A DNA stretch of 36,215 nucleotides from Anaerolineae bacterium (GTDB lineage: Bacteria > Chloroflexota > Anaerolineae > JACIWP01): positions 1-36,215 of the forward strand of contig JAPWUQ010000004.1 in the NCBI GenBank assembly GCA_028275445.1, in the 5' to 3' direction. Position numbers and translations under genes: made by a program. This document shows, in pieces, positions 8,419-31,024 of the stretch. Every line of letters begins with the position of its first letter. Positions within the stretch are counted from its first letter, which is position 1. The notes under the pieces are model-generated. The model saw only the letters and a program-made list of their open reading frames with translations, was not told where the DNA came from and made no database searches.

Positions 8419-9639
8419 ATGGTAGCGAACAGCCGGGACCTGGTCATCGCCGGCCTCCTGCGCCGGCTCGCCCGCATGCAGCAACTGCTTATCGTGGCGC
8501 GCATCCTGAACGAGACGCTGGACCTGGAAACGCTCCTGCGCTACATCGTGGAGACGGCCGCCGATTTGACCCAGACGGAGGCCGGCTCGGTGCTCCTGCT
8601 GGACAGCAAGGGCGAGCATCTCCGCTTTGCCGCCGCCACTAACATCAAGCCCAGCGCCCTGCGGGAGCTGACGGTGCCGATGGAAAACAGCGTGGCCGGC
8701 TGGGTGCTGACCACCGGCAAGGCGATGACGATCCCGGACATCCACCGGGCCGATTTCTTTTACGAAGGGGTGGACGAGGTATTGGGGTTCCATACCCGCT
8801 CCATCATGGCGGTGCCTCTGGAAATTCACGAGCGCCGCATCGGCGTGCTGGAAGTGGTCAACAAAATCGGCGACCGCCCCTTCACCGATGATGATATGGA
8901 ATCGCTGATGATTTTGGGGTCGCTGGCGGCGGTTTCCATCGAGAACGCCCGCCTGTTTCAGCAGAGCGATCTGATCTCGGATGTGGTGCATGAACTGCGC
9001 ACGCCGCTGACCTCGATTATCGGCTACAGCAAGATGCTGTTGATGATGGACAACGTGCCGGCCGCCATGCAAAGGCAGTTCCTGGAGACCATCCACCGCG
9101 AGGCCAGCCGGCTGGGTGACATGGTCAACACCTACCTCGACCTGGCACGCCTGGAATCGGGACGGGCACAGCTTCATCGGGAGGATGTGGACCTGAATGA
9201 GGTGGCGCGCGAGGCGGCGGAACTGATGCACCCGCAGGCGGCGGAGCGGGATATTGAGCTGATGCTGGAGCTGAGCGCGCCGGCCTGCACAGCCCATGTG
9301 GACAAGGCCCGCCTGCATCAGGTGCTGGTCAACCTGCTGAGCAACGCCATCAAATACAACCGCCCAGGCGGGAAGGTACACCTGGCGGTGACACCGATCG
9401 GCGGCCAGGCCCGCATCCGCGTGCAGGACACCGGCGAGGGCATTCCCCCGGATATCCTCCCGTATATCTTCGACAAGTTTTTCCGCGGCGAGGAAAAGGA
9501 GGGCCAGGCGAAAGGCACCGGCCTCGGCCTCTCCATCGCCAAACAGATCGTCGAAATGCACGGCGGCTCCATCGAGGTGCAGAGTGTGCCCGGCGAAGGC
9601 AGCACCTTCACCGTGATCCTGCCTCTAGAGACGTCCTGA
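8419..9639 (+). CDS. Soluble GAF-domain sensor histidine kinase
   Basis: The 406-residue protein has no membrane segment. Residues of about 18-180 are a GAF sensor domain (ETLLRYIVETAADLTQTEAGSV, then IMAVPLEI and GVLEVVNK). The HisKA domain follows with the phospho-acceptor His191 in DVVHELRTPLTS. The HATPase domain shows the N box NLLSNAIKYN (305-314), G1 DTGEGI (337-342), an F box around FDKFF, and G2 GTGLGL (366-371). It would autophosphorylate and pass phosphate to a response regulator. None lies next to it, so it is an orphan kinase here; the receiver-ATPase at 1473-2603 is a possible but unproven partner. ATG 8419 has AAGGGAG upstream. It converges with the alcohol dehydrogenase gene, leaving only 22 bases between stops. 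Confidence 0.93.
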   Translation: MVANSRDLVIAGLLRRLARMQQLLIVARILNETLDLETLLRYIVETAADLTQTEAGSVLLLDSKGEHLRFAAATNIKPSALRELTVPMENSVAGWVLTTGKAMTIPDIHRADFFYEGVDEVLGFHTRSIMAVPLEIHERRIGVLEVVNKIGDRPFTDDDMESLMILGSLAAVSIENARLFQQSDLISDVVHELRTPLTSIIGYSKMLLMMDNVPAAMQRQFLETIHREASRLGDMVNTYLDLARLESGRAQLHREDVDLNEVAREAAELMHPQAAERDIELMLELSAPACTAHVDKARLHQVLVNLLSNAIKYNRPGGKVHLAVTPIGGQARIRVQDTGEGIPPDILPYIFDKFFRGEEKEGQAKGTGLGLSIAKQIVEMHGGSIEVQSVPGEGSTFTVILPLETS

Positions 9640-15149: not shown

Positions 15150-16472
15150 ATGGTACGCACGTGGTCGAACCGATGGCTCGGCAGGACCTCCCTCTCCCGC
15201 CAGGAGTATCAGGCGTTCACCTTTGCCGCCGGCCTGGGGCTGGCGGATATCGGGCTGTTCATCATATTGGCCGCGGCACACCCGTGGCTGGGAATTACGC
15301 TGGGGCAGGCACTGCTGGTGCCGGCGGTCGGCCTGTTGCTGGTCATTGGCATCTTTATCCTTCTGCGCAACGGCGCCCTCATGCCGGCGCAAATCCTGCT
15401 GATCCTCACCAGCATGGGGATATCCAGCGCCCTGGTCGCCCTTTTCGGCGGCATCGGCGGCCCCCTGGATTTCATCCTGATCATTCCCTGTCTGATCGCG
15501 GGGCTGATGCTCGGACTCCATTGGGGCATTGGCATCAGCGTGATCTTGGGCGTCTTTTACATCATCCTCACCTGGCTCCAGTTGCAGGGCTTCACTTTTT
15601 CCATAATTTCTCCCCAGATACCCATCCTCTCCCACGTGCGGGCGCTTATCACGGCGCTGACCCTCCTTTTCGTGGGGATTCTCGTCGGAAGGATCAGCCA
15701 CTCCCTGAACCGGGCGGTAGAAGGCATCCGCTCCCATGCCGATAATCTTTCCACCCTGATCGAAGAGGTCGGGGCATCGGCGGAGGAAGTTGGAGTGGCT
15801 ATGTCGGACCTGGCGCGCAGCGCGGAGATGCAGGCCGCCCAGATGGAGGTCATCACCCAATCGGTGGAGGAGTTGGAGCAGGCCAGCCGGCGCATTGCCG
15901 GCGCCGCTGATGAGACCGGCCAGGCCGCCGCGGAGACGCGCCAGTTGTTCGAGCGCGTTGCCCGGGAGTTCGAGAGCCTGCTGGAGCGGGTGCGCTCCAT
16001 TCAGCGCATCGCCCAGATGGTGGACCGCTTCGCCGAGGAGACCCATCTGCTCTCGCTGAACGCCACCATCGAGGCGGCGCGCGCCGGCGCCGCCGGCCGC
16101 GCCTTCGACGTCATCGCCGGCGAAATCCGCGATCTGGCCCAGCGCTCTGCACGCTCTGTGGCAGAGATCGCCGAACTCAGCGCCACCATCCAGGCCGAGA
16201 TGGATACCCTGCGCGGGGCGGTCGAGGCCACCCTGCCCTACGTGGAACGCACCGCTGAACACGCGCAGGCCATGATCGAATCCACCCAACAGCAACAAGA
16301 ACATACCGCCGAGATCACCCGAGCCGTCGGCGAGGCCGCCACCGCCGCCCAACAGGTAGCCGCCAGCACCGAAGAGGCCAGCAACGCGACCGAGGAACAG
16401 GTCGCCGCGCTGAACCAGATTTCTCATTCCGCCCAAAGCCTGGTCGAACTGATCGCCTCGCTGGAACAGTAG
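15150..16472 (+). CDS. MCP-like signalling protein with polytopic membrane N-terminus
   Basis: The 440-residue protein has about six membrane helices between residues 22 and 184 in place of a periplasmic ligand domain, and no HAMP domain that I can see. Residues 190-440 are a long coiled coil of the methyl-accepting chemotaxis type. The hairpin tip is at about 290-330 (EETHLLSLNATIEAARAG, then GRAFDVIAGEIRDLAQ). The tip matches the family but departs from the usual RAGE-x-GRGFAVVA: the first Glu is Ala and the second Gly is Ala. No cheA, cheW or flagellar gene is nearby. It may signal through a distant array or not through chemotaxis at all. ATG 15150 has only a weak AGGGGAC site. The glycosyltransferase-GAF gene follows after 51 bases with no visible promoter, so co-transcription is likely. 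Confidence 0.85.
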   Translation: MVRTWSNRWLGRTSLSRQEYQAFTFAAGLGLADIGLFIILAAAHPWLGITLGQALLVPAVGLLLVIGIFILLRNGALMPAQILLILTSMGISSALVALFGGIGGPLDFILIIPCLIAGLMLGLHWGIGISVILGVFYIILTWLQLQGFTFSIISPQIPILSHVRALITALTLLFVGILVGRISHSLNRAVEGIRSHADNLSTLIEEVGASAEEVGVAMSDLARSAEMQAAQMEVITQSVEELEQASRRIAGAADETGQAAAETRQLFERVAREFESLLERVRSIQRIAQMVDRFAEETHLLSLNATIEAARAGAAGRAFDVIAGEIRDLAQRSARSVAEIAELSATIQAEMDTLRGAVEATLPYVERTAEHAQAMIESTQQQQEHTAEITRAVGEAATAAQQVAASTEEASNATEEQVAALNQISHSAQSLVELIASLEQ

Positions 16473-16523: not shown

Positions 16524-18101
16524 TTGTCGGGAACAACACGCACGCAAGATAACGGCTGGCCGCTTCTGCCTCCGGTGAGCCGGCAGGTCCAGGATGTCAT
16601 CCTCGAAGAAGCGGCGCCTGGTCTGCGGGTGCTGGAGATTTCCCTGGCGCGCGGCCTCGGCGCGGCGTTTATCGAGGAGCAGGTGCGCCGGCTGGCGCAG
16701 GGCCTGCAGGCGCGCGGCCATTTCGTGCAGGTCATCTATCCCGAACGGCTCCCACGGGGCCTGAAGCGCTGGGCACACTGGCCGGCCAACCGCGCCAGCC
16801 TGGCCAACTACGACATCCTCCACATCCATGCCGGCCTGCCCACCCCCCAGGACCTTCGGGAACTGCTTGGGCTGGGCTACATCCTCCCGGAGATGCGCGC
16901 CCGCAGTGTGTGGAGCTGTTACAGGTGCCTGAACACTGGCGGGGACGCGCAGGGCGTTCGCCGGCTGTCGGAACCGGCGCTGGTGCTGACACACAGCGCC
17001 GGCGATTACGAATTCCTGCGCCCGTACCTGCCCGAGGAGAAGCTTGCCTATGTGCCCTGGGGCGTCGAGCTGGAACACGTGTCGTCCCCACCCCAGGAAA
17101 GCGACGGCCTGCATGTCATTTTCCCCGCGCACTGCGGCGCAGAAGGCATAGAAGCCCTGGTCCAGGTGCTCCGGGACACGCCGGATATCACGGCGCATGT
17201 GCTGGTGCCGGCGGGCCAGGAGCCGCTCGCCGGCAATCCGATTGCTCCTGCCGCTCCCAACCTGCACGTGCATCATGTCGCCGGCCGGGAGGAAATTCGG
17301 GCACTTCTGCGCCAGGGGCAGGTGCTGTGCTGGCCGGCGGCAGAGCAGGGATGCTGTCTCGCCGGCCTGGAGCTGGAGGCGCTCGCCGCCGGCTGTCTGC
17401 TCGTCGCATCGGATTCGGCGCACGAGGTGCGCGGCTTAGCGGAGCAGGTGGGGTTCCTGTATGCGGCCGGCCAACCGCAGTCCCTGCGCCGCGTCCTCGA
17501 GACCCTGCGGGACGATCCCGACCTGCGCCGGCGCTATCAGGAGTTGGGCCGGCGTCGGGCTGAGCTGTTCCCATGGGAGCATACGCTCGACGCCTGCGAA
17601 CAGCGTTTGGCCCATGTCCATCTGCGCCGGCTGATCGCCTTTGCACTGCGCCGGGCGCGCGACCCGGACGACATATATCCCATCCTCCTGCGCCAGATGG
17701 TAAACATGATCGGCGCCGACGGAGGCACCTTTTTCGCGGCGCAGTCGGACGGCACTCTGACACTGCAGGCCGTGTATGGGCGCGGGCCGGCGCCCCCGCG
17801 GCATGTCGGACGGTACGAAGGGGTATATGGGTTTGCGGCGGACCAGCGGCAGACCCTTCTCCTTCCCGGGGATATCCAGGAAACCTATCTGGAAGAGAGC
17901 TGGCCCGTGTCGGACCTGCGCCGCTCCGCCGTCATCGTGCCGGTGCAGTACCGGGGCCAACTGCTGGGCGTCGCCGAGGCGATCCGGGGATTTATGCGCC
18001 GGCCTTTTGACGAATCGCATCGGCGCTGGTTCGTCTGGTGGGCGGAGGCGGCCGGCGAGGCAGTTGCCGCCCTGGAGCGGTCGAAGAAGGAAGGGCGCTG
18101 A
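16524..18101 (+). CDS. GT-B glycosyltransferase-like protein fused to a GAF domain
   Basis: The 525-residue protein appears to start at TTG 16524, with AAGGA 11 bases upstream; GTG 16575 is the alternative. Residues of about 34-365 have a two-lobed GT4 fold (LEISLARGLGAAFIEEQVRRL, YDILHIHAGLP, VLTHSAGDYEFLRPYLP, and an acidic donor-site segment at E274...E283/E285 followed by ALAAGCLLVASD). The usual Arg/Lys pair of GT4 enzymes after the inter-lobe linker is not evident (VIFPAHCGAEGIEAL), so catalytic activity is uncertain. Residues of about 368-520 are a GAF domain (YPILLRQMVNMIGADGGTFF, SAVIVPVQYRGQLLGVAEA). A glycosyltransferase with a C-terminal small-molecule sensor is unusual; regulation of glycosylation or a degenerate sensory lectin are both possible. 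Confidence 0.82.
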   Translation: MSGTTRTQDNGWPLLPPVSRQVQDVILEEAAPGLRVLEISLARGLGAAFIEEQVRRLAQGLQARGHFVQVIYPERLPRGLKRWAHWPANRASLANYDILHIHAGLPTPQDLRELLGLGYILPEMRARSVWSCYRCLNTGGDAQGVRRLSEPALVLTHSAGDYEFLRPYLPEEKLAYVPWGVELEHVSSPPQESDGLHVIFPAHCGAEGIEALVQVLRDTPDITAHVLVPAGQEPLAGNPIAPAAPNLHVHHVAGREEIRALLRQGQVLCWPAAEQGCCLAGLELEALAAGCLLVASDSAHEVRGLAEQVGFLYAAGQPQSLRRVLETLRDDPDLRRRYQELGRRRAELFPWEHTLDACEQRLAHVHLRRLIAFALRRARDPDDIYPILLRQMVNMIGADGGTFFAAQSDGTLTLQAVYGRGPAPPRHVGRYEGVYGFAADQRQTLLLPGDIQETYLEESWPVSDLRRSAVIVPVQYRGQLLGVAEAIRGFMRRPFDESHRRWFVWWAEAAGEAVAALERSKKEGR

Positions 18102-18154: not shown

Positions 18155-19378
18155 TCAGTGCACCAGCACCTTGATGCCGGGGTAGCGCAATTTGTAGACG
18201 TGCACAGCGTAATCGCTGAAGGTATCGACCATCGTGCCATCCCGGACCTGCAGAGTGCGGTCCTCGAACAGCACGTCCGCCTTGCTTCCCGGCAGGCCGG
18301 TGAACTTCACCTGGACGGTGTCGCGCACCAGGCTGGCGACGAAGAGATAGGTGTTGCCGCCGTAGTTGCGGGCGGTCATCAGGATAGACGGCTGGCGCAC
18401 ACCCATGGCCGGCGCCGACTGCGTGGGGCCGGAGAGAATGGTGAAGCTCATCCCCTGCGGCACCGGATCCGTGGAGGTGAGGATCGGCTTCAATTGCGTC
18501 AGCTCCGCCAGCACTCGGCGCAGGCTGTCGACCATATCCGGCACATACATGCCGTACTCGAAGGTGTACCAGTCGAGGCCCTGGGCGCCCAGCATCAGCG
18601 GCACATAGGCATCGAAGCGCATGTACTGATAGTTCGGGTGGCCGGCATGGAATCCAGGCGGCAGGGAGGACAGCCCGTTGCGCTCCGCGTAGGTCTGGGC
18701 ATCGAAGAACTGCGGCGTGGCGATGACGGCAGTGTTGGTGCCGGCGACGCCCTCCACTGCCCCCTTGACCCGGGTGACCATCGAAGCGCGATCAATGCCG
18801 TACAGCTCGGGATAGGCGCCGCAGAAGATCACGTCGGTGACGTCGGACCAGTAGCGGAAATAGTCCGGCGTCGCGCCTTCGGCCAGGTACAGCCCCACCG
18901 GCCTCTGCAGGGGGTCCGCCTTTTTGATGAGGTTGTACAGCCGGCGCCACGACTCATGGTCGGCCGCGGTCTTGGGCTCTTCCGGCAGGTACCACATGGA
19001 GACCGCGTTGGACTTGGCCAGCGCCGCCACGTAATTGATGACCGTGGCATCCGAGGCGGTCAGGAACGAGGGGGAGATGGAAACCCGCACTTTCAGGCCG
19101 TTCTGCTCCGCCTGGGCGAAATACTGCTGGTACTCCGCCACGCTCATGGGCACCATGGCGGCGGTGTTGATGCCGGCCTGGCTGACCTGCGAGAAGTACT
19201 CCGGCAGGATGTAATACCCGCCTAGGTGAATGGAGGGAGAGAGGACGCTGGCGATGGAAGGACTGCCGGCGATTGCCGGCGCAGTGCCGGCGAACAGGCT
19301 CACCAGCAGGAGGAACAACGACAGCAGTGCGACCGGGGTAATACTGCGCAATCTGAAGACAGTATGTTCCTTTTTCAT
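18155..19378 (-). CDS. Secreted glycosidase-like TIM-barrel protein, paralogue of the gene at 35572
   Basis: The 407-residue protein has a signal peptide (MKKEHTVFRLRS, Leu-rich core, cleavage near APAIAG). The mature part looks like a TIM-barrel glycoside hydrolase: strand-like segments, WYLPEEPK with E133-E134, GLYLAEGATPDYF, FCGAYPELYGID, and LDWYTFEYG with E274 as a candidate second carboxylate. A beta-rich C-terminal region follows (ILMTARNYGGNTYLFVASL). I do not recognise a numbered GH family, so the enzymatic role is inferred. The lipoprotein at 35572 shares the central region almost motif for motif. ATG 19378 is preferred over the adjacent ATG 19381 because GGTGG then lies four bases upstream; that site is in the arm of a hairpin. 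It is divergent from the glycan operon. Confidence 0.83.
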   Translation of the reverse strand: MKKEHTVFRLRSITPVALLSLFLLLVSLFAGTAPAIAGSPSIASVLSPSIHLGGYYILPEYFSQVSQAGINTAAMVPMSVAEYQQYFAQAEQNGLKVRVSISPSFLTASDATVINYVAALAKSNAVSMWYLPEEPKTAADHESWRRLYNLIKKADPLQRPVGLYLAEGATPDYFRYWSDVTDVIFCGAYPELYGIDRASMVTRVKGAVEGVAGTNTAVIATPQFFDAQTYAERNGLSSLPPGFHAGHPNYQYMRFDAYVPLMLGAQGLDWYTFEYGMYVPDMVDSLRRVLAELTQLKPILTSTDPVPQGMSFTILSGPTQSAPAMGVRQPSILMTARNYGGNTYLFVASLVRDTVQVKFTGLPGSKADVLFEDRTLQVRDGTMVDTFSDYAVHVYKLRYPGIKVLVH

Positions 19379-19383
19379 CATCC

Positions 19384-19475: not shown

Positions 19476-19532
19476 CCGGGCAGATTGGGCGGGGGGTACT
19501 TTCTTCCTAATCCAGTATCACGGAGGTGCGCA

Positions 19533-20978
19533 GTGGAGGTTCGGGTCTATCTACAAGCGGTATGGAAATCGATCCAGTGGTTGGCGATCGGCGTGGTTGC
19601 CGCCGCCGGCGTCAGCGTCTTGCTGAGCCTGTTCATCCTGCGGCCAGTCTATCGCGCCACCGCCACTATGATCGTCAACGTCAACGACCCCTTATCCAAT
19701 ACCACCGGCTACACGGCGGCGCTGGCCAGCGAGCGCATGGCCCAGACCTACGCCCAACTGGTGACGGAGCCGGGCATCCTGCAGGAGACGTTACAGCGCG
19801 CCGGCCTTTCCCTGCGCCCCGAACTCTTCCGCGAGCGCGTCACCGTCACCGCCCCACCCAATACCGCCGTCATCCGGGTCGCGGTGGAGGATAACAACCC
19901 GACCCGCTCCGCCGAGCTGGCCAACACGCTGGTGAAAGTGTTCGGCGAACGGGTGCAGACATGGCAGGAGGAGGCCGGCGTCGCCCGCACCGCCTCTTCC
20001 CCTGAAGTGGCCTCCCTGGTCGAGCAACAGCGCCAGTATCTGGCCAACACCCTGGATGCCTACGCCAGCACCTATGCCAACCTGATGGGCATCTACGTGG
20101 AGCTGACGAGCCAGATGCAGTCCATACGCCCCGTGCCGGCGGCGCTCCTCTCCGAGCAGGAGCTGAATGAGCTGGGCCTTTCCCTGCGCACCCAGATGAC
20201 CGATACGCTCCAGGCCATCAACACGCTCGAGGACCGGCTCGCGAAGCTGGAAACCACCCCTCCCACGGCGCAGTTCTCGCCGGCGGAATGGCGCGACGAG
20301 CTGACCCGTCTGGAGAACCTGCTCTATCAGTACCGCTCGCTGTATACCGAACTGCTGAACATCAAATGGACCATGTCCCAGCTTGAGCCGACCCGGCCGC
20401 CGGCGGACCAGGTCACCGCGCAGATGAGCACGGTGGACAGCCTCATCAACTCGGTGCGGGCCAAGATCGCCTCCCTGCAGGAGGAGCTCACGAAGCATGC
20501 GCAGGCCGCGCCGGCGCCGGACGCGCTCTCCCGGCAGGACATCGCCGCCCAAACCGAAACCCTGCGGCAGGAACTGACCGCCCGCCGCGAGGCCTACATC
20601 AACTGGCTCAACGGGTACATCAGCTATCTGCAACTGCGCCAGGCCAACTTGGAGCTTCCGGCGGTGGAAGTGGATGTCAAGGAGCTGGACGCACAGCGCA
20701 AGCAGATTGCCCAGGAAGCGGCGGTGGTATGGGAGCAGATTCAGGACCTGCGCAAGCGTCTGGACTCTTTTGACGAGGTCCATTACGAGCCGGCCGGCCC
20801 GCCCATCATCCTGGCCGAGGCGGCGCTTCCGCCGGCCAAACCGGTGCGCCCCAACCCCCTGCTGAACGGCGTGGTGGCCGGCACCGCCGCCCTCATCATC
20901 GGCCTGCTCATTGTCATCCTGCGGGAATACTTCCGCCTGGCGGCGGAGACCCCCATCGGCGCGGAAGAGCAAGGATGA
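19533..20978 (+). CDS. Wzz-type polysaccharide chain-length determinant protein
   Basis: The 481-residue protein starts at GTG 19533, with GGAGG six bases upstream; the frame extends further left without a ribosome site. One membrane helix lies at about 16-36 (IGVVAAAGVSVLLSLFI) and another near 448-468 (VVAGTAALIIGLLIVIL), the arrangement of polysaccharide co-polymerases. The PVYRATATMIVNV segment after TM1 is typical of Wzz. Between them is a long helical, coiled-coil extracytoplasmic region (residues of about 150-430) with many Leu/Glu/Gln heptads. A Pro-rich stretch (PPAKPVRPNP) precedes TM2. No C-terminal BY-kinase domain is present. It would control the length of the polymer made by the downstream genes. 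It is the first gene of the plus-strand operon. Confidence 0.9.
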   Translation: MEVRVYLQAVWKSIQWLAIGVVAAAGVSVLLSLFILRPVYRATATMIVNVNDPLSNTTGYTAALASERMAQTYAQLVTEPGILQETLQRAGLSLRPELFRERVTVTAPPNTAVIRVAVEDNNPTRSAELANTLVKVFGERVQTWQEEAGVARTASSPEVASLVEQQRQYLANTLDAYASTYANLMGIYVELTSQMQSIRPVPAALLSEQELNELGLSLRTQMTDTLQAINTLEDRLAKLETTPPTAQFSPAEWRDELTRLENLLYQYRSLYTELLNIKWTMSQLEPTRPPADQVTAQMSTVDSLINSVRAKIASLQEELTKHAQAAPAPDALSRQDIAAQTETLRQELTARREAYINWLNGYISYLQLRQANLELPAVEVDVKELDAQRKQIAQEAAVVWEQIQDLRKRLDSFDEVHYEPAGPPIILAEAALPPAKPVRPNPLLNGVVAGTAALIIGLLIVILREYFRLAAETPIGAEEQG

Positions 20979-20988
20979 GGCAGGTATA

Positions 20989-22524
20989 ATGGAACGGCCG
21001 GCAGACACCTCCCCCACATCCGATGCCGCGACCAGGCGCACGACCTTCGTGCGGCTGGCGGTGCGCGATTCGGCCATTTACCTGCCGGCGACGCTGGTGC
21101 AGGGATTGGGAGGCATCGCCGTCACCGCCATCATCAGCAAGCTCTCGACGCCGGCCGATTACGGCAGTTATACCCTGGGCATCAGCCTCTCGACGGCGCT
21201 CGCTATGATCGCCGGCCAGTGGATCAACGAGTCGCTCATCCGCCTCTGGCCCGAGGCGCGCCGGCGCATGGAGCTTCAGCATCTTTACGCCACGCTGGCG
21301 CGCGCCGGCGGCCTGCTGACCCTGCTGGTGATGGCCGCGTCCATCGGCATCCTGGCCTGGTGGCAGCCCGGCCGGCAGGAGGGGCTGTATCCATATCTGC
21401 TGGTCTCCGCCGCCACCTTCCCCCTCCTGGTAGCCTTCGGGGCCATCGCCGCCTGGTGCCGCATCACGGGCCGCTCGCTGTGGTTCAGCGCCTTCGTCAT
21501 CTGGCGGGTGCTGGGAGGGGTCGCCATCGGCGTCCTCCTGGCGCTGGGCGCCCGCATGGGCACCATCGGCTTCCTGTGGGGCATCGCCATTGCCTGGGGA
21601 GCGGTGGTCTTGGGCGTTGCCCTCTCCCGCCGGCAGGCCCTGCGCATTGCCCTGTTTGGGCGCTTTTTCTCGCGGGACATCCTGCGCGAGGCGGTGCGCT
21701 ACAGCCTGCCGCTGACCGGCATCGCCGTCGCCGGCCTGGTCCTTTCCATCTCCGACCGCTACATCATCGGCGGCCTGCTGAGCACATATGCCGTGGGCAT
21801 TTACGCCCTGGGATACTCCATCGCTCAGCGGGGCATGGAGCTGGTGCTGGAGCCGTTCGCTAGGGCTGTCCAGCCCCTCCTCTTCCGTTCCTGGGTGGAG
21901 CAGGGGCCGGCCGAGACCCAGCGGCTGGTCGAGCGTCTGGCGCGCTATTACCTGCTGATGGCCATCCCGCTGGCGGCCGGCCTGACAGCGGTCGCGCGGC
22001 AGGTGGTGCTCCTCCTATCCACCCCGGAATACCTGGACAGCGCCGCCGTCATCGGCATCGTCAGCGCGGCCATGATCTTTTACGGCCTGGCCCGCATGTA
22101 TGAGGAGGCCTTCGCCCTGCAGAAAACGACCTTACCGCTGTTTATCATTTACATCATCACCAGCGCCTTCAACGTGGGCGTGAACCTGGCCGGCATCCCG
22201 CGCTACGGCTACATGGTGGCCGCCTGGTCCACGCTGGCCTCCTACATCCTGATGATGCTGCTCACCGGGGCATGGGCACAGCGGGTCCTGCCCCTGCGGC
22301 TGTTCGGATGGTGGGTGTGGAAGCCGGCGCTGGCATCTGCCGGCATGGTGCTGGCGGTCACGGCGCTCCAGCGGTGGCTGGGGACCAGCTTGTGGCTGTT
22401 GGTGGTGCAGGTCGCCGGCGGTGCGGCCGTATATGCCCTGCTCATCCTGGCGTTCGGGGGAATTTCCCTGCACGAGCTTCAGGAACTGCTCAGGGCCGGC
22501 CGCGCCCGCCTGGGAATGAGATGA
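20989..22524 (+). CDS. Wzx-like polysaccharide flippase (MATE/MOP superfamily)
   Basis: The 511-residue protein has about 12-14 hydrophobic helices after a polar N-terminus. It starts at ATG 20989, 10 bases beyond the previous stop, with GAGGCAGG upstream. LVQGLGGIAVTAIISKLSTPADYGSYTLGIS is a typical first helical pair of the polysaccharide transporter (PST) family, and SISDRYIIGGLLSTYAVGIYALGY a typical central one. It is expected to flip lipid-linked glycan units from the inner to the outer face of the cytoplasmic membrane. Its place directly after the chain-length gene and before the ligase/polymerase supports a Wzx/Wzy pathway. Confidence 0.93.
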   Translation: MERPADTSPTSDAATRRTTFVRLAVRDSAIYLPATLVQGLGGIAVTAIISKLSTPADYGSYTLGISLSTALAMIAGQWINESLIRLWPEARRRMELQHLYATLARAGGLLTLLVMAASIGILAWWQPGRQEGLYPYLLVSAATFPLLVAFGAIAAWCRITGRSLWFSAFVIWRVLGGVAIGVLLALGARMGTIGFLWGIAIAWGAVVLGVALSRRQALRIALFGRFFSRDILREAVRYSLPLTGIAVAGLVLSISDRYIIGGLLSTYAVGIYALGYSIAQRGMELVLEPFARAVQPLLFRSWVEQGPAETQRLVERLARYYLLMAIPLAAGLTAVARQVVLLLSTPEYLDSAAVIGIVSAAMIFYGLARMYEEAFALQKTTLPLFIIYIITSAFNVGVNLAGIPRYGYMVAAWSTLASYILMMLLTGAWAQRVLPLRLFGWWVWKPALASAGMVLAVTALQRWLGTSLWLLVVQVAGGAAVYALLILAFGGISLHELQELLRAGRARLGMR

Positions 22525-22540
22525 ATAGGGAGGAGAAGGA

Positions 22541-23158
22541 GTGACAGTGGGAAAAATCCAGGACCTTCTGCGCCGGCTCGTGAAAAAGGTCTTCGAGCAC
22601 AACGAGTATTACATCTTTGTCAACCGCTCGCTGGACGACTTGCCGCCCGAGCGGCCTCTGCCGGCCGGCCTGCGCATCGTGCGGATTGACCAGGGGAACG
22701 CGGACGAGCTGGAGCGGATAGAAGGCCTGCCGGCCAACAAGCGGCGCGACTTCCGCAGGATGCTCGCCCAGGGGCAGGTCGGCTATTTCGCGCTGGACGG
22801 TCAGCGGGCGGCCGGCCATCTGTGGGCTATCATCCCCCGCCCGAATGAGGTGGTGAACCGCGGCTATGTGCGGGTCTATCCCGGCGAAGCATATGCCCAC
22901 TACGCCCATACCTACCCGCCGTACCGCCGGCAGGGCATCGCCTCTGCCCTGTCCCTCCACTTCCTGCATGATGTCCTGAACAGGCCGGACGTTCGCATGG
23001 TCAAGGCCAGCGTCCTCACGACCAACACTCCCAGCCTGGCAATGATGGAAGCCCTGCACGGCCGGCGGGTCGGCCGCATCTCGCACTGGCGGGTGTTGGG
23101 AATCCATTACCGCAAGGTCCTGCTGGACCCCGGACAAGAACAAGGAGCGCGCTGGTGA
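22541..23158 (+). CDS. GNAT-family N-acetyltransferase
   Basis: The 205-residue protein starts at GTG 22541 with GGGAGGAG five bases upstream. Residues of about 60-195 form a GNAT fold; YPPYRRQGIASALSLHFLHD (about 125-145) is the acetyl-CoA pyrophosphate-binding motif (R/Q-x-x-G-x-A), and VLTTNTPSLAMMEALHGRRVGR is the helix-strand motif B. The N-terminus (NEYYIFVNRSLDD) is specific to this protein. The substrate may be an amino sugar or protein of the glycan pathway. The final codons overlap the start of the next gene (GTGA), so translation is coupled to the FemAB-like pair. Confidence 0.87.
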   Translation: MTVGKIQDLLRRLVKKVFEHNEYYIFVNRSLDDLPPERPLPAGLRIVRIDQGNADELERIEGLPANKRRDFRRMLAQGQVGYFALDGQRAAGHLWAIIPRPNEVVNRGYVRVYPGEAYAHYAHTYPPYRRQGIASALSLHFLHDVLNRPDVRMVKASVLTTNTPSLAMMEALHGRRVGRISHWRVLGIHYRKVLLDPGQEQGARW

Positions 23159-24168
23159 GCGAGGAATTCACGGCCAGGTCCCTCACGCCTGAGGAATATC
23201 CCCTCTGGGACGCGCTGGTGGACACGGCGCCCTCCGGCACCCCGTTCCAGGCCACCTGGTGGATGGGAACCCTGGCAAGGGAGCTGAAAGCGCATTTTGA
23301 GGTAGTGGGATGCTTCCGCAAAGGCGTGCTGTGGGGAGGCTGTGCCCTGTTCGGCCGGCGCACCGGCCCCTTCTGCCGGCTGGTATTCCCTCCCTCGGCC
23401 CTCTACAACGGCATCGTGGTAAAGCCCAGGGACACCGATTCCTACCCCACTCAGGTCATGCACACCATCGGCGTGACCGAGTGCCTGGGAAGCTGGATCC
23501 GACAGCACGCCCATGAAGCGCACTTGACCCACCACCACTCTCTGCTCGACGTACGGGGGCTGATCTGGCAGGGCTGGCGCAGTCGGGTGCGCTATACATA
23601 CATCCTCCCGCTGGGCAGTCGGGAGGAGATGATCGGGCGTGCGGAGCGCACCCGCGGCGCCATGTTTCGTCAGGCGGAACGCGCCGGCCTGCGCTGTGAA
23701 CCCAGCGATGACATCGAGGCCTTCCTCCCGCTGTACGCCCGGACGTTCGCCCGACACGGGTTGGAGTCACCGGTCCCCCTGCCGGCCATCGCCGCCATCT
23801 ACCGCGCCGGCCGAGAGCGAGGGGCCGCCCAGCTCTTCCTCACCCGTACTCCCGCCGGCGAGGTCGTCAGCGGCACCATCGCCCTCTGGACCCAGCGCAA
23901 TGCCATGCTCTGGCTGGCCGCCAGCAAGCCCGAATGGCTGGAGCAGGGCGCCTCGGTATTCACCTATTTTGAGACCTTCGTCCACCTGGCCGAGCGCTTC
24001 CAAGAGGTGGATTTCGCCTCGGCCAATGTACACTCCCTGCATCATAACGCGGCCCTGCTGGGGGGCGAACTGCGGCTGGTCGCCCGCACCGAGCTGACGC
24101 GCTCGCCGGCCCTGCGCTTTTTCCATGCCCTGCGGCATATCAGGCGCTTTCAACCGGAGGAAGGATAA
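23155..24168 (+). CDS. FemAB-like aminoacyl/acyl transferase, copy 1
   Basis: The 337-residue protein starts at GTG 23155, overlapping the previous stop by four bases. It has the FemAB/BioF2-like double GNAT layout: an N-terminal lobe with PFQATWWM, VVGCF, LWGGCALFGRRTGPF and FPPSALYNGIVV. A C-terminal lobe has DDIEAFLPLYARTFARHGLESP, GEVVSGTIALW, MLWLAASKPEW and VDFASANVHSLHHNAA. Family members transfer an amino acid from aminoacyl-tRNA to peptidoglycan precursors, or act in exopolysaccharide loci with unknown acceptors. The position inside the glycan operon favours the second role. Copy 2 follows directly with no gap (TAA then ATG). No membrane segment. Confidence 0.85.
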   Translation: MSEEFTARSLTPEEYPLWDALVDTAPSGTPFQATWWMGTLARELKAHFEVVGCFRKGVLWGGCALFGRRTGPFCRLVFPPSALYNGIVVKPRDTDSYPTQVMHTIGVTECLGSWIRQHAHEAHLTHHHSLLDVRGLIWQGWRSRVRYTYILPLGSREEMIGRAERTRGAMFRQAERAGLRCEPSDDIEAFLPLYARTFARHGLESPVPLPAIAAIYRAGRERGAAQLFLTRTPAGEVVSGTIALWTQRNAMLWLAASKPEWLEQGASVFTYFETFVHLAERFQEVDFASANVHSLHHNAALLGGELRLVARTELTRSPALRFFHALRHIRRFQPEEG

Positions 24169-25206
24169 ATGAGCCAGGGAGAAGAGACCACCGGAGGCAA
24201 GGGCTATACGGTGCGCCGGCTGGAACCCGCGGAATATCCCGCCTGGGACACGCTGGTGTGGGAATCCCCTGCCGGCACGCTCTTTCAGACCTCCTGGTGG
24301 CTGGAAGCGCTGTGCCGGCTGACCGGCGCCCAACTGGAAATCGTCGGCTGTTTCGACAAGAAGGGGGCGCTCTGGGGGGGATGTGCGCTCTACGCGCGGC
24401 AGACCGGTCCCTGGAAGCGCGCCCTGTTCCCGCCGGCCTGTCCATACAACGGCATGGCCGTGCGCCGGCGCGACACCCCCAACTACCGCCGACAAATGGT
24501 GCACACCCTGGAGGTCACGGAAGCGCTGGCCGCCTATCTGGAGGAACACTATTCGGAGACCCTGCTGGCCCACCGCTATGAACTGGCGGACGTGCGGAGC
24601 ATGAGCTGGCGGGGCTGGGAGACCGCCCTGCGCTACACCTACGAAGGGGAAACGGCCGAGCTGAAACAGCTTTTGCGGGTGACGACCCGTACTCGCCGGC
24701 AGAAATTCGAGCGCGCCCAGGAACTGGGATATACCTGCCAGGCCGAGGATGACATCACAGCCTTCCTGCCGCTGTACCGCGCCACCTATTCCCGGCACGG
24801 CCTGGACACGCCGCTGAATCCGTCCCAAGTGGAAGCCATGTACCGGCTGGCCAGGGAGCGTCAGGCGGCGCGCTTGTTCATCACCCACTCTCCCGCCGGC
24901 GAACCGGTCAGCGGCATGATCATCCTGATGGACCCCCACCGCTGTTACACCTGGTTGTTCGCCAACCACCCGGCGCACCTGCGCGAGGGGGTCCCGACCT
25001 TCACCGTGCTTTCCACCATCGCCGCGCTGGCCGGCCTGGTGCGCGTCGTGGACCACGCCTCGGCCAATTTCCCCCAACTGCACCGCAGTGTGCTGGAGGA
25101 GGGGGGCATCTTGAAACCGGTGCTGGTAACGCATCACAACCGCTCTCGCTTGTTGCAGTGCATCCATGAGATGGGATTCATCCTGGGTGGCGAGCATGCA
25201 CGGTAA
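24169..25206 (+). CDS. FemAB-like aminoacyl/acyl transferase, copy 2
   Basis: The 345-residue paralogue of the preceding protein is aligned over its full length. Shared landmarks are LFQTSWWL, IVGCF, LWGGCALYARQTGPW, FPPACPYNGMAV, HTLEVTEAL, DDITAFLPLYRATYSRHGLDTP, GEPVSGMIIL and DHASANFPQLHRSV. The sequences differ throughout, so the duplication is not recent and the substrates may differ. ATG 24169 follows the stop of copy 1 immediately; the ribosome site GGAGGAAGG lies in the end of copy 1. Its stop at 25204-25206 overlaps the next gene's start by 11 bases. As in copy 1 the fold is two GNAT-like lobes, and the acceptor is unknown. Confidence 0.85.
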   Translation: MSQGEETTGGKGYTVRRLEPAEYPAWDTLVWESPAGTLFQTSWWLEALCRLTGAQLEIVGCFDKKGALWGGCALYARQTGPWKRALFPPACPYNGMAVRRRDTPNYRRQMVHTLEVTEALAAYLEEHYSETLLAHRYELADVRSMSWRGWETALRYTYEGETAELKQLLRVTTRTRRQKFERAQELGYTCQAEDDITAFLPLYRATYSRHGLDTPLNPSQVEAMYRLARERQAARLFITHSPAGEPVSGMIILMDPHRCYTWLFANHPAHLREGVPTFTVLSTIAALAGLVRVVDHASANFPQLHRSVLEEGGILKPVLVTHHNRSRLLQCIHEMGFILGGEHAR

Positions 25207-26593
25207 TCGCACGCAAAGGTCCGCGAGCCTACCATCTATCCAGTGGCTGATCCTCGGCGCCGCGCTGATCATCGGCGTCATCGTGCCGCTGTTGCTGACG
25301 CTCCCGCCGCGTCTGCTGGCGGTGCTGGGCATGCTGCCGGCGGCCGTCATCCTCTGGGTGCCGGAACTGGCCGTGGTGCTGATGCAGGACGCGTTGGGCA
25401 TCGTGCAGTCCTTCACCCGGCTCATCGGCATCCCCATCGAGAGCGGCTTCGCCTTCGGGCTGGCCGGCGCCGCTCTGCTGGGATACATCCTGCTGGCCCT
25501 CCGCCATCGTCTGGTGTACCGCGCCATCCTGTCCCCGCTGTCCCTGGCCACGTACGCCCTGGTCGCCGTGCTGGGCCTCAGTATCCTGCGGAGCGGCCCG
25601 CAGGTGGGGTTGGACAAGTTCCTGCGCTTCGCCGGCTTCAACCTGCTGGGCTTCCTGCTGGCCTCTCTGACGCCGGCACCGCGCCGGCGCTGGCTGGTGT
25701 ACGGCTTCATCCCGGTGGGCGCGGCCGGCATCGCCAGCGTCGGGTTGGCGCTGACCCAAATGTCGGCCGTTGGCCGGCTGACGGCCTTCGGCGGCAACCC
25801 CATCTGGACCTCCCGCCTGCTGTGCGTCGCCGGCCTGGTCATGCTGTGGTGGCCCAACCTGTCGTACTGGATCCGGGTGCCGGCGGCCACGGCCTTCTTC
25901 ATCGTGGCGGTGTTCACCGGCTCCCGCGGCCCCTTACTCACCAGCGGGCTGATTATCGCCGTGGCACTTCTCGGCCGTGCCCTGTATGCCCGCCGGCGCC
26001 ATACTGCTGGCGAATCACTCATCCTGTTCCTGGGCATGATGTTCGTGGCCGGCGCCGGCTTCCTCGCCCTGCGCGCCATTGCCAGCGAGCAGGCGGCCGT
26101 CAACCCCTATTCGCCCTTCGTCCGCATCTTCGCCGGCACGCCCGAGACCGAGGCCAGCACCGAGACCCGCCTGGCGCTGTACCAGATTGCCCTGGAGCAG
26201 TTCGGGCAGAACCCCCTCTTCGGCATCGGCCTGGGCGGCATGGTCACTGTCCTGCAAACCGCCGGCGTGGTCTATCCGCACAACCTGTTCCTGGAGTTCG
26301 CCTCCGAGACCGGCATCATCGGACTGCTCCTGCATGCCCTGGGCCTCATCCTGGCCTTCTTCGGAGCGGTTCCCTATCTGCGGGATGCTTCTCCCCGCAC
26401 CCGCGCGGATACTGCCATCGGGCTGATGCTCTTCCTCTTTGCCCTGCTGAACGCGCAGGTCAGCGGCGACATGGTGGGCAACAAGATGCTGTGGTTCTTC
26501 ATGGGCTATCTGAACGGCCTGGTATCGGAAAAGGGCTGGGGCGTTCCTGGGTTCCTGCGCCGGCGGAAAGTATTGGTGCGCAAAGAGGAGTAG
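25196..26593 (+). CDS. O-antigen ligase/polymerase-like membrane protein (Wzy_C family)
   Basis: The 465-residue protein has about 11-12 membrane helices. I chose ATG 25196 (GGTGG upstream, 11-base overlap with the previous gene); an in-frame ATG at 25166 would lengthen the overlap. Family landmarks are FTGSRGPLLTSG at about residue 240 and, in the large extracytoplasmic loop, TETRLALYQIALEQFGQNPLFGIGLGG, then YPHNLFLEFASETGIIGLLLHAL. WaaL ligases and Wzy polymerases share this fold. As no other polymerase is encoded here, it may polymerise repeat units or attach the finished glycan to a surface acceptor. Which of the two cannot be told from sequence. Confidence 0.9.
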   Translation: MHGNRTQRSASLPSIQWLILGAALIIGVIVPLLLTLPPRLLAVLGMLPAAVILWVPELAVVLMQDALGIVQSFTRLIGIPIESGFAFGLAGAALLGYILLALRHRLVYRAILSPLSLATYALVAVLGLSILRSGPQVGLDKFLRFAGFNLLGFLLASLTPAPRRRWLVYGFIPVGAAGIASVGLALTQMSAVGRLTAFGGNPIWTSRLLCVAGLVMLWWPNLSYWIRVPAATAFFIVAVFTGSRGPLLTSGLIIAVALLGRALYARRRHTAGESLILFLGMMFVAGAGFLALRAIASEQAAVNPYSPFVRIFAGTPETEASTETRLALYQIALEQFGQNPLFGIGLGGMVTVLQTAGVVYPHNLFLEFASETGIIGLLLHALGLILAFFGAVPYLRDASPRTRADTAIGLMLFLFALLNAQVSGDMVGNKMLWFFMGYLNGLVSEKGWGVPGFLRRRKVLVRKEE

Positions 26594-26599
26594 CGCGGC

Positions 26600-27577
26600 A
26601 TGCGGCTCATTGTCACAGTAGATACCGAAGCGGACAATCAATGGGACGCAGGCCGGCCCCTGCGCCTGGAGAACCTGCACTGTCTGCCGGCCTTTCAGAC
26701 GCTGTGCCGGCGCTATGACATCCGCCCTACATACCTCATCACTACGGAGGTGGCGGAGGACGTCCAGGGCATGCAGACCCTGCGGGACTGGGCGGAGCAA
26801 GGGGAAGCGGAAGTGGGGGCGCACCTCCACCCCTGGACCACCCCGCCCTTCCAGGATAGCGCCGGCCAGCGCGCCAACGATCCCCAGCACACCTTCCCCA
26901 GCCAGCTCCCCCTTCCTCTGCTGAAGGCCAAGCTGGAGACGCTCACCCGGCAAGTAGAAAGGACGCTGGGCCGGCGGCCGGTCTCGTTCCGCGCCGGCCG
27001 CTTCGGCATGCACGCCCCCCTGGCCGGCCTGTTGGTCGAGCAGGGCTATCGGGTGGACTCGTCGGTCACGCCCGGCCTCTCCTGGCACCGGCTGGGCGGG
27101 CCAGATTTCACCACCGCGCCCCTGGCGCCATATCATCCCGACGAGGCGGACATCTGCCGGCCGGGGAGGCTGGCGCTGTGGGAGATTCCGCTGACCATGG
27201 TATATACCCGGCAGATCTTCCGCCGCTGGCCGGCGCTGGCGCGCCGGTACGGCCGGCTGAATGGTTCACTGGCCGGCCGGCTGATGCGGCTGACCTGGCC
27301 CGGTCCCCAACCGCTCTGGCTGCGGCCCAGCCCCCGCCGCGACGAGCGTCATCTCCTGCGCGTATGGCAGGAGGCGGCGCGCCTGGGCCTCCCCTTTGGG
27401 GTGCTGATGCTCCATTCCAGTGAGCTGATGCCCGGCGGAAGCCCGTACTGGCCCACGCCGGCGGCGGTGGAACGGCTGTTCGCCCAACTGGAGCGTTTCT
27501 TCGCCCTCCTGCGGGAAGCGGGAACGCCGTCCTGCACCCTGGCCGAGGCCGGCGCCCTGCTGGATGAGGGGGCGTAA
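26600..27577 (+). CDS. Polysaccharide deacetylase (WalW-like NodB fold)
   Basis: The 325-residue protein has a NodB-type fold without a signal peptide, so it is probably cytoplasmic. VDTEAD at the start gives the catalytic Asp8 and Glu10; HLHPW (H75, H77) supplies metal ligands; SFRAGRFG (129-136), VDSSVTPG and LMLHSSEL (His272) complete the active site. WalW-type members occur in polysaccharide loci. It would remove N-acetyl groups from sugars of the glycan or its precursors. ATG 26600 is six bases past the previous stop with GAGGAG upstream. Its last 14 bases also contain an ATG (27564) in the frame of the next gene, but a better start lies just after. Confidence 0.9.
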   Translation: MRLIVTVDTEADNQWDAGRPLRLENLHCLPAFQTLCRRYDIRPTYLITTEVAEDVQGMQTLRDWAEQGEAEVGAHLHPWTTPPFQDSAGQRANDPQHTFPSQLPLPLLKAKLETLTRQVERTLGRRPVSFRAGRFGMHAPLAGLLVEQGYRVDSSVTPGLSWHRLGGPDFTTAPLAPYHPDEADICRPGRLALWEIPLTMVYTRQIFRRWPALARRYGRLNGSLAGRLMRLTWPGPQPLWLRPSPRRDERHLLRVWQEAARLGLPFGVLMLHSSELMPGGSPYWPTPAAVERLFAQLERFFALLREAGTPSCTLAEAGALLDEGA

Positions 27578-27578
27578 G

Positions 27579-28757
27579 ATGGGCATGCGCATCCTGGGGC
27601 TCGCGCAGGTACCGCTGGGCCGGCACGATGGCGCTTCCGCCCATGTGATCGGCCTGTATTCCGAGCTGGCCCGCTTAGGAGCAGAGGTGCGGTGCATCCT
27701 GCCGGGCACACTGCCGGCGAGCACACCCCTGCCCTTCCAGGCCATTTACGTCCCTACCGGCCGGGACATCCGCCGATGGACCTTCATCTGGCACCTGCTC
27801 AGCCCCTGGTGGTTCCTGGGGGCTGTGCTCCGCTATCGTCCGCAGGTGGTGTATCTGCGCGGGCATCTGCTCCTGCCCCATCTGGTGCTGGCGCGGCTCC
27901 TCGGCCGGCCGGCGGCCGTGGAGATCAACGAGGATAAGTCGGGCGAGCTGGAATGGCAGGGGGAATGGCGCCGGCGGCTGGCGCGCCTGAACCGCATCAT
28001 CGAGCGATGGTCCTATCGGTTGGCGTGGCGGCTCCTGCCGGTGACCCCCCAACTGCGCGATCTACTGGTGCACGAGCACGGCGTGGAGCCGGCGCGCTGT
28101 CGGGTGGTGTCCAACGGCTTCGACCCGGCGGTCTTCTTCCCGCGGCCCAAAGAGGAGGCGAAACGCTATTTGGGGCTGGATGCACGCCGGCGCTACATCG
28201 CCTTCGTCTCCCAGCTCACGCCGCGGCACAGCCTGGACCTGTTGGTGCAGGGCTTCGCGGTGCTGGCCGGCCAGGTGCCGGACGCGGACCTGCTGGTGGT
28301 CGGCGAGGGGGTGGCTCGGCCGCAGATGATGCGCTGGTGCGAGGAACTGGATATCGGCGCACGCGTCATCTTCGCCGGCGAGGTGCCGGCGGAGCGCGCC
28401 GCATGGTACATCGCCGCGGCGGAGTGCGGCGTGGCCCAACTGCGCGCCGACCGCAACGCCCGGCGCGTCGGCGCCAGCCCGCTCAAGCTGTGGGCCTATC
28501 TGGGTTGTGCGCGGCCGGTGCTGGCCGGCCAGGTGCCCAACCTGGCGGAGATCATCCGGGAATGGGACTGCGGGCTGGTCATCGAGGAGGAAACGCCGGC
28601 GGCCTTCGCCGCGGCGGCACGCTATCTGCTGGAGCATCCGGAGAAGGCGGAGGAGATGGGCCAGCGGGGGTATGCCGGCGCATTGGCCGGCTATACCTGG
28701 CACGCCGTAGCCCAAAAGACCCTTGCCATCCTCGAGGAGGCGCTCCATGCCGCGTAA
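27579..28757 (+). CDS. GT4-like glycosyltransferase with altered donor-site motifs
   Basis: The 392-residue protein starts at ATG 27579, two bases after the previous stop (GAGGGGG six bases upstream). It is a two-lobed GT-B enzyme: GRHDGASAHVIGLYSELARLG in the N-lobe, then AVEINEDKSGE, VVSNGFDPAVFFPRP linking the lobes, and LLVVGEGVARPQM in the C-lobe. The usual C-lobe Arg/Lys pair is replaced by SQLTPRHSLDLL. In ASPLKLWAYLGCARPVLA the expected Glu of the EX7E motif is Ala. Either the donor site is unconventional or activity is reduced. The frame overlaps the next gene by 11 bases. The role is extension of the lipid-linked glycan. Confidence 0.87.
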   Translation: MGMRILGLAQVPLGRHDGASAHVIGLYSELARLGAEVRCILPGTLPASTPLPFQAIYVPTGRDIRRWTFIWHLLSPWWFLGAVLRYRPQVVYLRGHLLLPHLVLARLLGRPAAVEINEDKSGELEWQGEWRRRLARLNRIIERWSYRLAWRLLPVTPQLRDLLVHEHGVEPARCRVVSNGFDPAVFFPRPKEEAKRYLGLDARRRYIAFVSQLTPRHSLDLLVQGFAVLAGQVPDADLLVVGEGVARPQMMRWCEELDIGARVIFAGEVPAERAAWYIAAAECGVAQLRADRNARRVGASPLKLWAYLGCARPVLAGQVPNLAEIIREWDCGLVIEEETPAAFAAAARYLLEHPEKAEEMGQRGYAGALAGYTWHAVAQKTLAILEEALHAA

Positions 28758-29859
28758 GGTCCTGCACGTCATCGCCTCCCTGCGCGTGGGCGGCGCCCAA
28801 TCGGTGCTGGCCTACCTCCTGCGGCAGTGGCGCGGCCAGTCCCGCTATCAGTTCGCCGTCGCCGCGGTCCTGCCCGGCGGCCAGTTCATGCCCATGATCG
28901 AGGCCATGGGCGTGCCGGTCTACGAGCTGGGCGTCTCCGTTCCCTATGACCCACGCGCCATTTGGCGCCTGCGGGATGTCCTACAGCGCGAACAGCCGGA
29001 CATCATCCACTGCCACCTGTTTTACGCCAATCTCTACGCCGCGCTGGCCAACCGCATGGGACGCCGCCGGCCCCTCATCTACACCGAGCACAGCATCTGG
29101 AACCGCCGGCGCGGAATGGCCATCATGCGGCCGTTCGACCGCTGGCTGGCGAAGCAGTTCGACCATGTGGTGGCGGTGGCGGAGATCGCGAAGGCGCGCT
29201 TCGTGGAGTGGACGGGATATGACGCGGGGCGGGTCACAGTCATCCCCAACGGCATCGCCGTCGAGGATTTCCCGCCGGTGGTGGACGTGCCGGCCCAGCG
29301 GGCGGCCTGGGGGCTTTCCCCCAACGATTTCGCCTTCATCACGGTCGGCCGGCTGGCCCCGCCCAAGGGTCTGCACCATCTGCTCCGGGCAGCGCGCCTG
29401 CTGGCCGACGCCGGCCGGCGCTTCCGCCTGCTCATCGTCGGCGACGGGCCCCTGCGCCTGACGCTGGAGGAGCTGGCCGGCGCGCTGGAGCTGAGCCCCT
29501 GGGTGACCTTCTTCGGGGCGCGCTCCGATGCGCCGGTGTTGATGACGGCCAGCGACGCCTTCGTGCTGGCGTCGGAATGGGAGGCCCTGCCCATGGCCCT
29601 GCTGGAGGCCATGGCCTGCTGCAAGCCGGCCGTCGTCACGCGGGTCGGCGCCATCCCCGAGGTGGTGCGCCATGGGGAAGAGGGCCTGCTGGTGCCGCCG
29701 GCCGAACCGAACGCGCTGGCCCACGCCATGGCCCTGCTGATGGACATGCCGGCGGACGAGCGCCGGCGTCTGGGCCTGCAGGCCCGCCGGCGGGTGGAGG
29801 AAGCCTACCACATCCGACAGACCGCCGAACGTCTGCTGGACCTCTACGACCAGTTTTGA
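28747..29859 (+). CDS. GT4-family glycosyltransferase
   Basis: The 370-residue GT-B enzyme has complete family motifs. SLRVGGAQSVLAYLL is the nucleotide-sugar enzyme N-terminus. DIIHCHLFYANLYAAL and YTEHSIWN form the acceptor side, VIPNGIAVEDF is the inter-lobe linker, and FITVGRLAPPKGLHHLL contains the Arg and Lys that bind donor phosphates. SEWEALPMALLEAMACCKPAVVT carries the EX7E pair. ATG 28747 has GAGGAGG upstream and lies inside the last codons of the previous gene (11-base overlap). It is expected to add one sugar to the growing glycan at the inner face of the membrane; the sugar is unknown. Confidence 0.93.
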   Translation: MPRKVLHVIASLRVGGAQSVLAYLLRQWRGQSRYQFAVAAVLPGGQFMPMIEAMGVPVYELGVSVPYDPRAIWRLRDVLQREQPDIIHCHLFYANLYAALANRMGRRRPLIYTEHSIWNRRRGMAIMRPFDRWLAKQFDHVVAVAEIAKARFVEWTGYDAGRVTVIPNGIAVEDFPPVVDVPAQRAAWGLSPNDFAFITVGRLAPPKGLHHLLRAARLLADAGRRFRLLIVGDGPLRLTLEELAGALELSPWVTFFGARSDAPVLMTASDAFVLASEWEALPMALLEAMACCKPAVVTRVGAIPEVVRHGEEGLLVPPAEPNALAHAMALLMDMPADERRRLGLQARRRVEEAYHIRQTAERLLDLYDQF

Positions 29860-29872
29860 GGGAACGCACACC

Positions 29873-31024
29873 ATGCGCATCGCCCATGTCGCCACCGTGG
29901 ACATCACCCTGAAGGCGCTGTTACTGCCGCAGGTGCGCTATCTGCTGGCGCGCGGCCATGAGGTGGAGATGATCGCCAGCGCCGGCCCCCATACCCCGGC
30001 ACTGCATCAGGCCGGCTTCGTGGTGCACAATGTCTTCATCTCGCGCCGCATCGAGCCATGGCGCGACCTGCGCTCCGCCATCGAACTGGCGCGCCTGTTC
30101 CGCCGCCGGCGCTATGACCTGGTGCACACGCACACCTCCAAGGCCGGCTTCGTCGGGCGGCTGGCAGGGCGCCTGGCCGGCGTGCCGGTGGTCGCCCACA
30201 CGGCGCACGGCTTCTTCTTCCATGAGAATATGCCGCCCCTCCAGCGCCGGCTCTTCGAAGGGCTGGAACGCCTGGCCGCCGGCTGGACAGACCTGCTGTT
30301 CCTGCAGAGCCGTGAGGATTACGAGTACGTGCTGGCCAGCGGCATGATGCCGCCGGCGCGCGTTCGCTACCTGGGCAACGGCATTGACCTGAGCGCGTTC
30401 GACATCACACGCTGGGACCGGCCCTGGGAGCGCCAGTTTCTGCGCCAGACATTCTTCGGTGACGGGGATTACATTGTCGCCCTCATGGTCGCCTTTATGA
30501 TTGAGCGCAAGGGCCATATCTACCTGCTCCGGGCGCTGGAAGCGATGGGGGAGGAGCGCGAGCGCCTGCGCGTCCTCCTAGTGGGAGACGGGCCGCTGGA
30601 GGAGTCCCTGCGGGGGTTCGTGCGGGACGCCGGCCTGGAACGCCATGTGGCCTTTGCCGGCTATCGCGAGGATATCCCCCGCCTGCTGGCCGGCGCCGAT
30701 ATATACGTCCTGCCCTCCCTCTCCGAGGGCATGCCGCGCTCCATCCTGGAGGCTATGGCCATGGAACTGCCGGTCATCGCCTCCGATATCCGCGGCTGTC
30801 GCGAGCTGGTGGTGGACGGCGAGACCGGCCTGCTGGTGCCGCCGGCGGACGCCGGCGCGCTGGCGGAGGCCCTGCGCCGGCTGGCCGGCGACGCGGATCT
30901 GCGGCGCAGGATGGGGGAGGCCGGCCGACAGCGCGTCCAACAGGAATTCGATGAGCGGCTGGTCTTTCAGCGCCTGGAAGAGGGCTACCGAGATATCCTG
31001 CAGGCGAAGGGATTGTGGAAATGA
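29873..31024 (+). CDS. GT4-family glycosyltransferase
   Basis: The 383-residue GT-B enzyme has an N-lobe with VATVDITLKALLLPQVRYL, YDLVHTHTSKAGFVGRLAG and VVAHTAHGFFFHE, close to the WbpH/PglA-type enzymes that start from a lipid-linked sugar. The C-lobe has VAFMIERKGHIYLLRAL (Arg/Lys pair), LLVGDGPLEESL and SLSEGMPRSILEAMAMELPVIAS with the EX7E pair. HTSKAGF plus AHGF is typical of enzymes acting right after the phosphoglycosyl transferase, which is the next gene. ATG 29873 is 13 bases past the previous stop. Its stop overlaps the next start as ATGA. Confidence 0.93.
   Translation: MRIAHVATVDITLKALLLPQVRYLLARGHEVEMIASAGPHTPALHQAGFVVHNVFISRRIEPWRDLRSAIELARLFRRRRYDLVHTHTSKAGFVGRLAGRLAGVPVVAHTAHGFFFHENMPPLQRRLFEGLERLAAGWTDLLFLQSREDYEYVLASGMMPPARVRYLGNGIDLSAFDITRWDRPWERQFLRQTFFGDGDYIVALMVAFMIERKGHIYLLRALEAMGEERERLRVLLVGDGPLEESLRGFVRDAGLERHVAFAGYREDIPRLLAGADIYVLPSLSEGMPRSILEAMAMELPVIASDIRGCRELVVDGETGLLVPPADAGALAEALRRLAGDADLRRRMGEAGRQRVQQEFDERLVFQRLEEGYRDILQAKGLWK

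Follow-up and report, generated by a model that had tools for sequence, protein, structure and literature searches.

A degenerate GT4-type glycosyltransferase domain fused to a GAF domain, encoded beside a chemoreceptor gene and near a surface-polysaccharide cluster in an Anaerolineae genus

An open reading frame of an Anaerolineae genome joins a glycosyltransferase-like half to a GAF domain, which raises the question of whether its product is an allosterically controlled glycosyltransferase or a former enzyme turned sensor, the two readings offered by the original prediction. The gene (here, the GT-GAF gene) lies in a window of 36,215 nucleotides, by which we mean the whole stretch of DNA that was analyzed, and the window makes up contig 6 of a genome of 2.9 Mb. 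The features that bear on the question are listed in Table 1.

Table 1. Features of the window, with the distant relative from another class
Feature	Position	Strand	Remarks
Membrane MCP-type chemoreceptor	15150-16472	+	440 aa; 51 bp from its end to the GT-GAF start
GT4-derived domain with C-terminal GAF domain, single ORF	16524-18101	+	525 aa; TTG start
GT-B (GT4-type) domain, degenerate active site	16617-17623	+	residues ~32-366
GAF domain, helical linker before it	17655-18062	+	residues 378-513 (Pfam)
Convergent conserved neighbor	18155-19381	-	without Pfam family; separates the GT-GAF gene from the glycan cluster
Surface-polysaccharide cluster, Wzz/Wzx/Wzy-type	19485-32396	+	
Wzz-like	19485	+	polysaccharide cluster
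Wzx-like flippase	20911	+	polysaccharide cluster
GNAT/FemAB-like	22541-25206	+	polysaccharide cluster
Wzy_C ligase/polymerase	25166	+	polysaccharide cluster
Three GT4 enzymes, intact	27564, 28723, 29873	+	polysaccharide cluster
Polyprenyl glycosylphosphotransferase	31015	+	polysaccharide cluster
NeuD-type acetyltransferase	31728	+	polysaccharide cluster
GT4 protein with GAF-like tail (P0001), genome G153	L095:4579-6204		542 aa; RPYK and EX7E intact; other Chloroflexota class

The reading frame is uninterrupted from its TTG codon to the stop at 18101. This TTG aligns with a TTG in all three known orthologs, that of the window included (genomes G000, G001, and G002, all of one Anaerolineae genus and 75 to 94% identical), and in the window an AAGGA lies ~10 nt 5' of it. 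The orthologs of G002 (94% identity) and G001 (75%) have the same fused frame without a stop, also in the junction region. The third-position GC content is 0.72 to 0.90 along the entire frame, substitutions between the window and G002 fall mostly in third positions on either side of the GT/GAF junction, and the codon bias is continuous across it. That a sequencing frameshift merged two genes is thus practically out of the question, being refuted by the identical fusion in two independently assembled genomes and by a coding signal that crosses the junction without a break.

The C-terminal half is assigned to the GAF family by profile searches, in agreement with the original prediction of a fold running without interruption into a GAF domain: both GAF_2 (PF13185; residues 378 to 513, E = 3.6e-7, 30.9 bits for a cutoff of 28.6) and GAF (PF01590; residues 380 to 502, E = 3.3e-6, 28.1 bits for a cutoff of 22.4) score above their thresholds. 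This domain contains no Cys, and no motif defining a ligand was identified in residues 378 to 513. The window genome has 38 GAF_2 matches in all, and a GAF-histidine kinase (GAF, HisKA, HATPase_c) is encoded at 8419-9639, ~7 kb upstream of the GT-GAF gene. The GT4 C-terminal families are slightly below threshold in Pfam for the 525-aa protein (Glyco_trans_1_4, 25.9 bits for a cutoff of 27; Glycos_transf_1, 24.7 bits for a cutoff of 26.4). An AlphaFold2 (AF2) model of residues 25 to 389, computed from 41 aligned GT4-type sequences, with GT4s of viral contigs added for alignment depth, reached a pLDDT of 85.6 and a pTM of 0.85, and its best PDB match was ManT (7qsg; Z = 27.3, 3.1 Å across 312 residues), with PimA (2gej) at Z = 26.2. 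A full-length model built from two sequences (pLDDT, 34) was set aside. As modeled, the N-terminal half is a GT4-type GT-B fold, shared with PimA, MshA, and ManT (2gej, 3c4q, and 7qsg) over ~310 to 320 residues at Z scores of 26 to 27.

The active site is where the window protein departs from these enzymes. The residues of PimA common to the GT4/GPGTF group are His118, Arg196, Lys202, Glu274, and Glu282 (PMC9883506, PMC4506291). Replacement of Lys240 or Glu321 by Ala inactivates ManT, and its activity is drastically reduced in Glu313Ala (PMC9883506). We compared the three genus orthologs with 68 related Chloroflexota GT4 sequences. The donor-diphosphate Lys (PimA Lys202) is found in all 68 relatives and is replaced by E, T, and E in the three orthologs; the first Glu of the EX7E motif (PimA Glu274), likewise present in 68 of 68, is Cys in all three (C277 in the window). 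The catalytic His, which in PimA is His118 of the N-terminal domain, is kept in 51 of the 68 relatives and is Tyr in every ortholog (Y133). The second Glu of EX7E (PimA Glu282; 67 of 68 relatives) is present in the three orthologs as E285, the sole survivor among the four signature residues (His, Lys, and two Glu). Thus, the three orthologs share the second motif Glu with PimA, MshA, and ManT but carry other residues in place of the His, the phosphate Lys, and the first motif Glu, and they have an extra C-terminal GAF domain. With only three orthologs, 75 to 94% identical, calling any of these residues invariant would be a weak claim.

The surroundings of these positions are altered as well. 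The basic-residue loop reads GQFRPYKG in relatives and PAHCGAEG in the window, with H203-C204-G205 in place of the Arg/Lys loop, and no Arg or Lys was found in window residues 196 to 216, which bears out the predicted absence of a donor-phosphate Arg/Lys pair. The region of the first Glu reads G276-C277-C278. The window segment PAAEQGCCLAGLELE is equal in length to the segment PSVTRAEAFGLVLLE of a cousin from genome G153 (described below), so that in a gap-free alignment C277 takes the place of the first Glu and E285 that of the second. An alternative alignment, shifted by two residues, brings Q275 (Ala in G001) to the first position; the assignment is therefore ambiguous between C277 and Q275, and in either alignment there is no conserved Glu there. 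The acidic motif had been read as EX8E (E274...E283), which we reject as a genuine motif; it is not conserved, since G001 has Gly for E274 and Ala for E283, and the motif Glu that is retained is E285. The replacement of Lys, first Glu, and His, taken with the effects of the ManT mutations, makes it likely that canonical catalysis has been lost in the window protein.

In a comparison of the window gene with that of G001, the two halves of the glycosyltransferase domain have dN/dS values of 0.32 and 0.26 and the GAF domain one of 0.14; both parts evolve under purifying selection and the GT-GAF gene is being maintained.

Relatives of the protein place the fusion in a wider context. In a maximum-likelihood tree, the genus clade groups with GT4s of genomes G153, G050, G547, and G642 (support, 97/96), a placement made less safe by the genus stem, which at 3.57 substitutions per column is the longest branch in the tree. 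All four of these GT4s retain the Lys and both Glu, and that of G642 (L115) has Gln instead of His. Only the G153 protein (P0001) has a tail like that of the genus, with 157 aa past the glycosyltransferase domain compared with 156 to 157, and this tail by itself matches Pfam GAF at 23.2 bits (cutoff, 22.4). Among 124 distinct GT4-like ORFs, tails of >60 aa occur only in the window genus and in G153. A search with an ortholog profile in 400 genomes of the phylum and 298 of the class gave no additional full-length match, although with 3 to 4 candidates scored per genome rarer fusions could be missed; protein scans of genome contigs returned the G001 ortholog as the sole match. The open-access papers that were searched contained no description of a GT4-GAF protein.

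The G153 protein resembles that of the window in having a GT4 domain of the same supported clade followed by a C-terminal GAF domain of equal length. It differs in its intact catalytic residues, in its GT-PMT-GT4-flippase context, and in having no MCP match beside it. The GAF-like tail joined to an intact GT4 site means that an enzyme-GAF fusion exists, and judging from its residues the G153 protein is probably an active glycosyltransferase, possibly regulated by its GAF domain. The GAF domains of the genus and of G153 are weakly alike (hhalign probability, 14%) and a joint fusion clade with G153 is not rejected (AU test; P = 0.45), which fits one old common fusion as well as two separate ones. 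A GT4-PMT-GT4-flippase neighborhood is found in G153, G050, and G642, and the flippase is kept on the short contig of G547.

The gene upstream had been called an MCP-like receptor, and its product does carry an MCP signaling domain (PF00015; residues 252 to 416, E = 1.5e-29) after a hydrophobic region (residues ~21 to 186) with several transmembrane helices; no recognized sensor domain was found in it. Matches to its N-terminal part in 199 genomes of the class were confined to the genus, two weak hits aside. The MCP gene, the GT-GAF gene, and the glycan cluster are collinear with the window throughout in G001 and up to the contig end in G002, and the GT-GAF gene is probably cotranscribed with the MCP gene. 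The link between signal transduction and sugar handling drawn in the original prediction holds to the extent that this gene order is conserved in the genus, but it does not extend to the rest of the GT4 subfamily, since no MCP match was found beside the GT4s of G153, G050, G547, and G642; adjacency to an MCP gene does not prove a pathway in common. There are two PF00015 matches in each of G000 and G002 and one in G001, the latter being the window-type MCP, and all three genomes have CheW domains. A complete che operon (CheR, CheW, CheY, CheB, and CheA) is present on contig 3 of G001 (L092), where it adjoins a gene for a fusion of a response regulator and a ParA-like ATPase. No flagellin was found in the genomes of the genus, and each has two strong matches to the secretion/pilus ATPase family PF00437, so any Che output in the genus is probably not flagellar.

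The surface-polysaccharide cluster lies downstream. Near its opposite ends are two genes that are ~45% identical, the convergent gene at 18155-19381 (-) and a partial gene at 35548-36213 (+), the latter with a weak hint of a glycosyl hydrolase 2 TIM barrel (E = 0.11). Two tandem FemAB/GNAT-like genes of acetyltransferase fold (23155-25206) are ~44% identical to each other. Pel systems also employ a GAF-bearing regulator, PelD, which has a degenerate GGDEF domain, and a GT4 enzyme, PelF, as separate proteins of one polysaccharide system. There the GAF and GT4 domains are unfused, unlike in the window protein, and a Pel-type system is unsupported here, as the NCBIfam model of PelF did not match the window protein.

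Of the two readings, that of an enzyme that became a sensor is favored by the sequence in this genus, because the equivalents of Lys202, Glu274, and His118 are replaced while the fold and the GAF domain are kept under selection; the allosteric glycosyltransferase fits the G153 cousin instead. We give about even credence to a noncatalytic pseudo-glycosyltransferase-GAF protein that regulates or assists the neighboring surface-glycan genes, the chemoreceptor, or both. Such a protein would be cytosolic, and its GT4 domain, minus the donor-phosphate Lys, the first Glu, and the catalytic His, would be retained as a folded noncatalytic binding module. The GAF domain may bind a small molecule and the pseudo-glycosyltransferase domain a sugar nucleotide, a lipid-linked sugar, or a partner glycosyltransferase, and a ligand-dependent conformation of the fusion could then tune surface-glycan synthesis and/or signaling by the adjacent receptor.

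The closest rival, which we regard as unlikely, is a partner subunit that binds the acceptor or one of the cluster's active GT4s, which it would activate or position, with the GAF domain acting mainly as a dimerization or allosteric module. There is a precedent in GtfB, which has no catalytic activity and is the partner of the GT4 enzyme GtfA in an O-GlcNAc transferase (PMC12809243). GtfB is a glycosyltransferase-like protein serving a GT4, and the window protein is likened to it by its probable inactivity, sequence kinship aside; unlike the window protein, it has no reported GAF domain (PMC12809243). The adjacent cluster encodes three intact GT4s and the acceptor-side N-terminal half is conserved as a fold, but the convergent gene separates the GT-GAF gene from that cluster and the pairing is with the MCP gene.

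Next comes an active but noncanonical glycosyltransferase under GAF allostery, which would take its sugar from another donor (e.g., a polyprenyl-phosphate sugar) or hold the diphosphate with other residues. The intact GT-B fold, the retained second motif Glu, and the remote cousin P0001, with its GAF-like tail and intact GT4 site, would suit such an enzyme, which we nevertheless consider improbable: all three orthologs, but none of the 68 relatives, have the Lys and first Glu replaced, and the glycosyltransferase half is under weaker constraint than the GAF half.

A long shot is that the GT-B fold itself acts as a sensor in the cytosol, with a donor site remodeled around H203, C204, C277, and C278 (possibly a metal or redox site replacing that for the sugar phosphate), and that together with the GAF domain it feeds the MCP and couples the state of glycan synthesis to the Che pathway. 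Most Cys of the glycosyltransferase half are shared by the window and G001, no more than its ~70% identity predicts. Scarcely probable is a decaying gene whose glycosyltransferase half drifts toward loss; the GT-GAF gene is the fastest evolving of the examined block (75% identity to G001 versus 82 to 91% for its neighbors), but its frame is open in three genomes, dN/dS is far below 1 in both halves, and the fold model of the glycosyltransferase region is confident.

Bacterial pseudoenzymes on glycosyltransferase folds are, to our knowledge, seldom described. If the noncatalytic reading is true, the likely active GT4-GAF protein of G153 and the inactive one beside a chemoreceptor would form a comparable pair and would make the change from surface-glycan enzyme to regulator testable.
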